Below the pieces are notes generated by a model, which searched no databases, was not told the origin of the DNA, and was given only the letters and a program-made list of their open reading frames with translations. The position numbers and the translations under genes were made by a program. From positions 2,356,001 through 2,420,000 of the forward strand of contig NZ_JBBPCL010000001.1 in the NCBI RefSeq assembly GCF_038039215.1: a stretch of DNA of 64,000 nucleotides. The letters are read 5' to 3'. This stretch comes from Pseudonocardia sp. T1-2H. Lineage in GTDB: Bacteria > Actinomycetota > Actinomycetes > Mycobacteriales > Pseudonocardiaceae. Below are positions 44,263 to 45,632 of the stretch, one piece after another. Position 1 is the stretch's first letter, and the number at the start of each line of letters is the position of its first letter.

Positions 44263-44955
44263 TCAGAGGTAGTCGGCGAACGACGAGACCAGGCTCGCGA
44301 GGACGTCACGGCCCTTCCGGGCCGAGGCCAGCGACGGCCGGCCCACCACGCCCGTGTCCGTGTACGCCTGCAGGCCGCGGCTCAGCATGTGGCGACGGTC
44401 GCAGGCGAGCACGTCGAGGCCCTCCAGCGGAGCCGTGACGAGGTGCGGGTGCGCGTGCAGCAGGATCGAGGTCTCCAGTTCGCCCGCGTGCATGTCACTG
44501 AGACCGGACGTGACCAGGCCGGCCGCGGCGCGGGCCGCGTCCCAGTCGGGCTCGCCGGGGAACAGCGCCATCCGCAGTGGTCCGAGGCTCGCCTCCTGCA
44601 CCACGTTGCCGAGCACGTAGTTGCCGCCGTGGCCGTTGACGAGGACCAGCGACGTCACGCCCGCGCGGTGCAGCGAGGCGCCGACGTCGCGCACGATCGC
44701 GGCGAGTGTGGTGGCCGAGATGCTCACCGTGCCGGGCCAGGCCGCGTGTTCGTGGGAGCACGAGATCGTGACCGGCGGGAGCCGGCGGACCGGGTGGACG
44801 GCGGCGATCTCGGCCGCCAGGGTGGCAGCGACGACCGTGTCCGTCGTGAGCGGTAGATGCGGTCCGTGTTGTTCGAGGCTGCCGATCGGGAGCAGCGCCA
44901 CGGATGCGGAACGCATCCGCTCGTCGAGCGTGGTGTCGGCCGGCAGCAGATCCAT
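44263..44955 (-). CDS. Creatininase-family amidohydrolase (MftE/ArfB-like)
   Basis: A 230-residue creatininase-fold metal hydrolase. Metal ligands are visible: Glu28 and His30 in GSLEQHGPHLPLTTDT with Asp39, SCSHEHAAWPGTVSI, VNGHGGNYVLGN, and DMHAGELETS with its Glu. The family includes creatinine amidohydrolase, the mycofactocin peptidase MftE and archaeal ArfB, which deformylates the GTP-derived pyrimidine FAPy. Since the divergent neighbour 50 bases away is a GTP cyclohydrolase II paralogue predicted to stop at FAPy, deformylase is my preferred role. It is not beside any mycofactocin genes, which argues against MftE. ATG 44955. Confidence 0.82.
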   Translation of the reverse strand: MDLLPADTTLDERMRSASVALLPIGSLEQHGPHLPLTTDTVVAATLAAEIAAVHPVRRLPPVTISCSHEHAAWPGTVSISATTLAAIVRDVGASLHRAGVTSLVLVNGHGGNYVLGNVVQEASLGPLRMALFPGEPDWDAARAAAGLVTSGLSDMHAGELETSILLHAHPHLVTAPLEGLDVLACDRRHMLSRGLQAYTDTGVVGRPSLASARKGRDVLASLVSSFADYL

Positions 44956-45005
44956 CACGGCGGACCTTCGCACGGATCCCGGACGAGGACCAGAGGGGGA
45001 AGCAC

Positions 45006-45632
45006 ATGCCGAACGAGGCACTGACCGACGTCGCCGAGTCGACACTGGCGACCCGGCGCGGGACGTTCCGTGCCGTCGCGTTCCGGGAGCGGAGCGGCGG
45101 ACCCGAGCATCTCGCGCTCGTCCACGGCGATCCACGGCCCGGCCAGGACGTACTCGTGCGGGTGCACTCCGAGTGCCTGACCGGCGACGTCTTCGACGCG
45201 CTGCGGTGCGACTGCGGGGCGCAGCTGTCCTCGGCGCTCGACGCCATCGTCGCGGAGGGCACCGGGGTGCTCGTGTACCTGCGCGGGCACGAGGGCCGGG
45301 GGATCGGCCTGGTCGCGAAGGTTCGCACGCACGTGCTGCAGGACGAGCAGGGGCTCGACACGGTCGACTCCGCGACGGCGCTCGGCCTCCCGGTGGACGT
45401 CCGCGACTTCGGGGCGGCCGCGCGGGTGCTCCAGCATCTCGGCGTCACCTCGGTCCGGCTGCTGTCCAACAACGCGGACAAGGTGGACGCCCTCACGGGG
45501 CACGGCGTCGCGGTCGCCGCACGCGTGCCGTTGCTGGAACCGGTCACCGAGCAGAACGTCCGGTACCTCACCGCGAAGCGCGACCGCCTCGGCCACGACC
45601 TGCCGCACCTCGATCCGGCCCGCCGGCCGTGA
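45006..45632 (+). CDS. GTP cyclohydrolase II paralogue with altered switch residue
   Basis: A 208-residue stand-alone GTP cyclohydrolase II domain. Zinc ligands Cys57, Cys68 and Cys70 (HSECLTGDVFDALRCDCG), GVLVYLRGHEGRGIGL and LLSNNADKV are intact, so it should open the GTP imidazole ring. At the position of E. coli Tyr105 (KIRAYALQD) it has His109 (KVRTHVLQD). In Streptomyces coelicolor SCO6655 a Met at this site stops the reaction at FAPy, while Tyr enzymes go on to APy. So a FAPy product is predicted. It is not fused to ribB, unlike common riboflavin RibBA proteins. ATG 45006 follows GAGGGGG. Confidence 0.9.
   Translation: MPNEALTDVAESTLATRRGTFRAVAFRERSGGPEHLALVHGDPRPGQDVLVRVHSECLTGDVFDALRCDCGAQLSSALDAIVAEGTGVLVYLRGHEGRGIGLVAKVRTHVLQDEQGLDTVDSATALGLPVDVRDFGAAARVLQHLGVTSVRLLSNNADKVDALTGHGVAVAARVPLLEPVTEQNVRYLTAKRDRLGHDLPHLDPARRP

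Follow-up and report, generated by a model that had tools for sequence, protein, structure and literature searches.

The archaeal riboflavin route leads from GTP through formylated FAPy to APy (2,5-diamino-6-ribosylamino-4(3H)-pyrimidinone 5'-phosphate) and uses GCH III, ArfB and ArfC. A bacterial GTP cyclohydrolase II (GCH II), SCO6655 of Streptomyces coelicolor, reportedly forms FAPy and carries Met120 as its switch residue. GCH III has been described (PMC7288161). PMC2853524 lists SCO6655 among the genes whose expression is anticorrelated with the flux predicted for the reaction assigned to them (-0.61); this agrees with a function outside riboflavin, although SCO2687 (-0.52) is on the list too. 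The creatininase-family formamidase BrbF (SMc02977, Bab2_0247) of alphaproteobacteria was shown experimentally to convert AFRPP (FAPy) to DARoPP (APy); its gene has MarR and CobW genes as neighbours, riboflavin formation depends on it, and its GTP-opening partner is given as still to be found (PMC9478397). From this precedent, a creatininase-family protein can deformylate FAPy. A search of the open-licence literature, with subscription papers lying outside it, found no description of the gene cluster reported here or of its GCH II/creatininase pair.

We analysed a stretch of 64,000 nucleotides from Pseudonocardia sp. T1-2H (the window), in which a GCH II gene with His at the switch site stands next to a creatininase-family gene (Table 1). 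An earlier note on this DNA had placed a divergent creatininase gene 50 bases from the GCH II gene, and the two start codons are indeed separated by those 50 bases (44956-45005).

Table 1. Genes and residues of the cluster part that lies in the window, with the evidence for each assignment.
Feature	Position in window	Strand	Evidence
CDP-alcohol phosphatidyltransferase	42173..43210 (conserved part 42521-43210)	-	PF01066 40.2 bits; conserved in clusters
SAM-methyltransferase-like	43343..44245	+	PF13649 30 bits, cut-off 27; conserved in clusters; start codon uncertain
Creatininase-family hydrolase, proposed FAPy deformylase (230 aa)	44263..44955 (start codon 44953-44955, end 44263)	-	PF02633 200.9 bits, cut-off 31.3; structure model; invariant residues
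GTP cyclohydrolase II, non-Tyr (His109) type, proposed FAPy stop (208 aa)	45006..45632 (ATG 45006, stop ends 45632)	+	PF00925 (family profile) 207.9 bits, cut-off 23.3; site alignment
Asp69 codon, between zinc cysteines	45210-45212	+
Switch residue His109, codon CAC	45330..45332	+	Counted from ATG at 45006
Sulfatase-like membrane protein	45659..47380	+	PF00884 19.4 bits, below cut-off 25; in part of clusters

Besides matching its family profile, the GCH II of the window scored 203.1 against TIGR00505, narrowly below the cut-off of 205.85. In the alignment to the E. coli enzyme (PDB 2bz0), His109 occupies the site of Tyr105 (KIRAYALQD in E. coli versus KVRTHVLQD in the window), and the Tyr by which an APy-former would be recognised is thus absent. 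C57, C68 and C70, which we take to be the zinc cysteines, and D131 and R133, presumably catalytic, are all kept; the claim that His109 goes together with intact zinc and catalytic residues was therefore borne out by the alignment. When 55 cluster-type GCH II rows were compared with 60 Tyr-type rows, column 109 was the most discriminating of the columns compared (overlap 0.0), with 42 Met, 7 His, 5 Leu and 1 Gln in the former and Tyr in all 60 of the latter. The idea that His is unique to the window was rejected, as it occurs in those seven rows and in 14 of 19 sequences from the PTPS-chosen genomes described below. Between the zinc cysteines, Glu is found instead of Asp69 in the other 54 of the 55 cluster-type rows and in all of 19 further cluster-type sequences. 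Three further GCH II genes occur in the window's genome, all with Tyr at the switch site and with long reading frames that are RibBA-like by eye. The window GCH II is therefore not the sole riboflavin entry, and a plain riboflavin duplication was rejected.

The predicted model of the window creatininase (pLDDT 89.8) has creatinine amidohydrolases as its nearest folds, and E28, H30, D39, H109 and E161, which we take to have a metal role, are invariant across 25 creatininase rows. The sequence reads NGHGGN where creatininase 1q3k has NGHYEN. None of three curated equivalog models reached its cut-off with this protein: the scores were 33.4 versus 180 for ArfB (NF033501), 98 versus 235 for creatininase (TIGR04448) and 124.4 versus 172 for MftE of mycofactocin (TIGR03964), the last being the top-scoring NCBIfam model. 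Identity as a true creatininase, ArfB or MftE was rejected on these scores. To BrbF the window protein is likened by family only, the same deformylation of FAPy being proposed for it; unlike BrbF, it has the gene of its proposed partner next to it within a cluster, and the genome holds three Tyr GCH II at other places. BrbF was not recognisable among the 40 plasmid matches listed.

Creatininases 53-60% identical to that of the window are found away from the cluster, next to a different conserved gene. Thirteen loci had a creatininase and no cluster gene; one of them, L152, was counted with the cluster group in the trees on account of a cluster-type GCH II 15.5 kb away in its genome (G384), and 11 of the remaining 12 were analysed (L141, L143, L146, L148, L149, L150, L151, L153, L154, L156 and L157), L158, the second contig of G085, being omitted from both the comparison and the tree. 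A homologue of the other conserved gene was found in 10 of these 11 stretches, all but the short L151. Of four proteins of this neighbour family that were scanned, two gave no match, one a TPR match and one an HTH match, neither of which reached its cut-off. Non-cluster creatininases form one side of a branch in the unrooted creatininase tree (SH-aLRT 91); adding a very distant outgroup places them within the cluster creatininases (support 80). We conclude from the other conserved neighbour that the subfamily has at least one other role and, taking the unreached equivalog cut-offs into account as well, that homology alone does not fix the creatininase reaction. Four actinobacterial plasmids (L262, L263, L265 and L266) also carry a creatininase directly after an uncharacterised gene; with the conserved neighbour above, these cases make up a second partnership. 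On a Streptomyces coelicoflavus plasmid, a creatininase 63% identical to that of the window (L261, 10001-10690) has no cluster gene around it in the DNA fetched. Near the cluster of genome G241 lies a further creatininase-family gene, a distant one at 37% identity (L123, 17061-17708, minus strand).

The two genes are part of a set of eight to nine that is conserved across related clusters. Its conserved neighbours encode a zinc-dehydrogenase-like protein, a PTPS homologue, a GT4 glycosyltransferase, a methyltransferase, a flippase-like protein (LPG_synthase_TM) and a CDP-alcohol phosphatidyltransferase; the sulfatase-like protein, whose gene in the window starts 26 bases after the GCH II gene and whose homologue in L123 scores 25.8 bits to PF00884, is present in some clusters only. 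In the window's genome the cluster is split: five genes lie in the window, and the four for the flippase-like, glycosyltransferase, PTPS and dehydrogenase-like proteins are 1.2 Mb off, at about 3.60 Mb on the contig. The PTPS homologue belongs to the family of SCO6650 (PDB 3d7j, deposited as uncharacterised), with which the copy from the window's genome shares 83% identity. The cluster PTPS homologue matches PF01242 with 82.4 bits, and the HGHNY motif of PDB 2g64, presumably a zinc site, is replaced by HGATF or HGATY in 15 of 15 cluster PTPS rows.

A PTPS gene of this type was found in 202 of 392 genomes of one genus (that of G018), taken to be Streptomyces, and 19 of 20 PTPS loci picked by hand from 19 of its genomes had all eight genes of the set, with Met as the switch residue. 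Among the sampled genomes, the PTPS closest to SCO6650 (99% identity), in genome G624 (L241), lies in the same eight-gene cluster, whose GCH II has Met at residue 119 from its ATG; this fits the Met120 reported for SCO6655. The window enzyme resembles SCO6655 in its GCH II fold, zinc residues and non-Tyr switch, and its genome also has the SCO6650 homologue; it differs in the His at the switch, in having Asp69 rather than Glu between the zinc cysteines, and in the distribution of the cluster over two loci. A plasmid of Streptomyces fungicidicus carries an annotated copy of the cluster with Met at the switch and with every gene named generically. The one remaining locus of the 20 is a lone second copy of the SCO6650-type PTPS gene (L259), which genome G742 has besides its full cluster.

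We asked whether a non-Tyr GCH II goes together with the creatininase, the check that had been proposed for this pair. A GCH II scan of a public genome collection returned at least 80 named loci, and five of the best 80 were non-Tyr: Actinopolymorpha rutila (His), Nocardiopsis endophytica (His), N. flavescens (Leu), Streptomyces natalensis (Met) and Actinophytocola xanthii (Met). A creatininase 61-66% identical to that of the window was found near four of these five loci, the stretch from N. flavescens ending too early, and none was found at E <= 1e-5 near the 75 Tyr loci, for several of which the stretch covered less than 10 kb a side. Next, 394 genomes of the class were examined. The creatininase query matched 43 of them (E <= 1e-50), and a profile of the cluster-type GCH II (A1) gave its best 33 matches, at 317-347 bits, in 33 genomes, the next match scoring 302. 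All 33 genomes are among the 43 and carry the creatininase on the same contig as the GCH II, a count that is partly circular in that 16 of the 22 rows of profile A1 came from stretches fetched for their creatininase; for the same reason a non-Tyr GCH II without a creatininase may be under-ranked. The two genes are less than 400 bp apart in 21 of the 33 and at most 15.5 kb apart (12.2 kb in G346). At the switch site, the best 30 profile matches that were read had Met (18), Leu (6), His (5) or Gln (1) and no Tyr, and Tyr was found in 40 of 40 lower matches, hand-picked down the matches listed, five of them chosen as coming from creatininase-only genomes. The converse proposition, that every creatininase relative marks a FAPy-forming GCH II, was rejected, as 10 of the 43 creatininase-positive genomes lack a cluster GCH II.

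An unrooted tree of 115 GCH II rows, built from an alignment in which the switch column was kept, has a branch (SH-aLRT 91) that sets the 55 cluster-type rows apart from all others; on this tree the switch residue has to change five times. The window GCH II groups with Met, Leu, His and Gln rows only.

To define the joint distribution of the two genes, genomes were also chosen by their PTPS gene. In a phylum sample 9 of 296 genomes had it, and in the window's family 30 of 60, counting the genome of the window itself; the remaining 29 of the family, together with G095, G002 and G789, made a set of 32. At the thresholds applied (E <= 1e-30 for the creatininase; at least 303 bits, with the next match at 289, for the cluster-type GCH II), both genes were present in the same 19 genomes and both absent from the same 13. 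The switch residue in the 19 is His in 14 and Met in five. In the 13 pair-less genomes, the reading covered the best GCH II of 11 genomes and the in-cluster copies of G095 and G789, with G002 and lower-ranked copies outside it; the best GCH II had Tyr in 11 of 11. The clusters of G095 (L272) and G789 (L274, a 3.8 kb contig) contain a Tyr GCH II with its zinc and catalytic residues intact, and neither genome gave a creatininase match. All six other core genes are kept in seven of the 13 (L272, L277, L283, L288, L323, L324 and L331), judged on family stretches picked by hand. The cluster is incomplete in four (L270, L273, L278 and L289) and the contig short in two (L274 and L325), and some of these may be decaying. 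In G1072 the pair is split between contigs, with both members retained.

The two traits were identical in all 40 rows of a PTPS plus glycosyltransferase tree. On the best tree the pair changes state eight times, three of them on well-supported branches; a sign test on these three independent contrasts gives p = 0.25, too few for significance. A two-enzyme source of APy that is dispensable and can be exchanged for a one-enzyme source would be expected to leave such a pattern. Chance adjacency of the GCH II and creatininase genes was rejected on the co-occurrence in 33 of 33 genomes and on the 19/13 split. The prediction that non-Tyr GCH II should co-occur with the creatininase thus withstood both samples, and the notion of a FAPy-forming and deformylating pair gains support from the joint presence and absence.

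From these observations we infer the two reactions as follows. The two genes would constitute a two-enzyme module that replaces one ordinary GCH II. The non-Tyr GCH II would open GTP, release pyrophosphate and stop at formylated FAPy because Tyr105 is missing, and the creatininase-family metalloenzyme would remove the formyl group from FAPy to give APy. We put the probability of this reading at about two in three. Counted against it are Asp69, the low score with the ArfB model and the unreached MftE and creatininase cut-offs, the creatininase relatives outside the cluster, the plasmid copy of S. coelicoflavus with no cluster genes nearby, the circularity of the profile, the small number of contrasts (three) and the possible decay of some pair-less clusters. 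The proposed order, GTP to FAPy to APy, is that of the archaeal route; here, in contrast, the first enzyme is a GCH II, unrelated to GCH III, and the creatininase fails the ArfB model.

The formyl group might instead be kept through one or more later steps as a protecting group, which would also bar riboflavin synthesis, with the GCH II making FAPy and the creatininase acting on a later intermediate. With three Tyr GCH II in the genome able to make APy, a detour to the same APy seems wasteful, and the creatininase does share one cluster with the other enzymes. However, the seven pair-less genomes that retain all six other core genes, together with the two clusters that have a Tyr GCH II and no creatininase, suggest that the rest of the pathway runs without the formyl group; in L272, moreover, the reductase gene directly follows the Tyr GCH II gene. 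The joint absence of the pair argues against a formyl group needed further down the pathway, and we regard its retention as unlikely. More doubtful still is that His109, being protonatable, takes the place of Tyr: the GCH II would then yield APy itself, and the creatininase would hydrolyse something else, such as a peptide like that of MftE or an amide of the end product. MftE as the best NCBIfam model and the related creatininases working outside the cluster would suit such a role, but Met, Leu and Gln at the same site in the same cluster would be improbable substitutes for the Tyr hydroxyl, and no conserved cluster gene looks mycofactocin-like by eye. That exactly these two genes are absent while the others stay would also be hard to explain if their reactions were unrelated.

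An incidental neighbourhood, in which a spare riboflavin paralogue happens to lie beside a generic hydrolase, might be entertained because both families are large and common. It is contradicted by the co-occurrence in both samples, by a branch in each of the two unrooted trees (SH-aLRT 91 both times) that has the cluster-type rows on one side, and by the 19 of 20 PTPS loci from one genus that carry the whole eight-gene set, and we give it almost no weight.

If the two-enzyme conversion of GTP to APy is adopted, APy would feed a conserved uncharacterised pathway made up of the PTPS homologue, the dehydrogenase-like protein, the GT4 glycosyltransferase, the methyltransferase, the CDP-alcohol transferase and the flippase-like protein, to which some lineages may add a RibD_C reductase similar to the APy reductase of archaea. 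A gene for the latter was found in or near 25 of 92 stretches, in 18 at 60% identity or more (four being the queries themselves) and in seven at 32-36%. PF01872 matched all three RibD_C proteins that were scanned; the archaeal 2,5-diamino-6-(ribosylamino)pyrimidinone phosphate reductase model, TIGR01508, ranked first among the NCBIfam models for two of them, whereas the third, from L122, scored best with ribD_Cterm. The TIGR01508 scores (134.9, 128.1 and 101.8) all lie below the cut-off of 186.45, so that the cluster reductases, where present, resemble the archaeal enzyme without reaching its model. In L272, the opening of the reductase frame lies no more than five bases from the final sense codon of the Tyr GCH II gene. 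No reductase was found in the fetched DNA of most Streptomyces-type clusters, and it is therefore not a core gene. The window's genome has a RibD_C homologue at a third place, at 5.32 Mb, which is 66-69% identical to two cluster copies and 52-55% identical to two others; no other cluster gene was found in the stretch fetched around it (L335). In this homologue (L335, 9556-10322, at about 5.318 Mb) the last 24 aligned reductase residues lie in another frame.

A wider picture is tentative, and we hold it at somewhat under even odds. A widespread and so far unrecognised actinobacterial pathway may begin in the archaeal order, from GTP through FAPy and APy to a ribityl pyrimidine, a bacterial GCH II taking the part of GCH III. 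An SCO6650-type T-fold protein would then build a pyrimidine or pterin compound that would be oxidised, methylated, glycosylated, joined through a phosphodiester and exported, and the two-enzyme entry would be a cassette swapped with a one-enzyme Tyr GCH II. Observed here are the gene content, the switch residue, the joint presence and absence of the pair and the Tyr GCH II of two clusters; the two reactions, the downstream use of APy, the product and its export we infer.

The proposed pair would offer an answer to why a bacterial GCH II should stop at FAPy, in that a partner encoded in the same cluster would finish the reaction. It would also supply a candidate type of GTP-opening partner for creatininase-family formamidases, a partner that in the BrbF organisms had yet to be identified (PMC9478397). 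The switch residue may serve as a testable genomic marker, since non-Tyr goes with the creatininase in the samples read, and the pair points to a gene set that is present, judged by its PTPS gene, in about half of the sampled genomes of the genus taken to be Streptomyces.

Two further features of the window were seen. The cluster genes are preceded by a P-type ATPase-like open reading frame of 1559 aa (37408-42084, plus strand), with a weak heavy-metal-associated match near its N-terminus. Further along, in a ThiC gene (52479-54180, minus strand), one open reading frame matches profile positions 1-246 of 420 and seems by eye to be continued by the frame at 52479-53156, an apparent frameshift or sequencing error.
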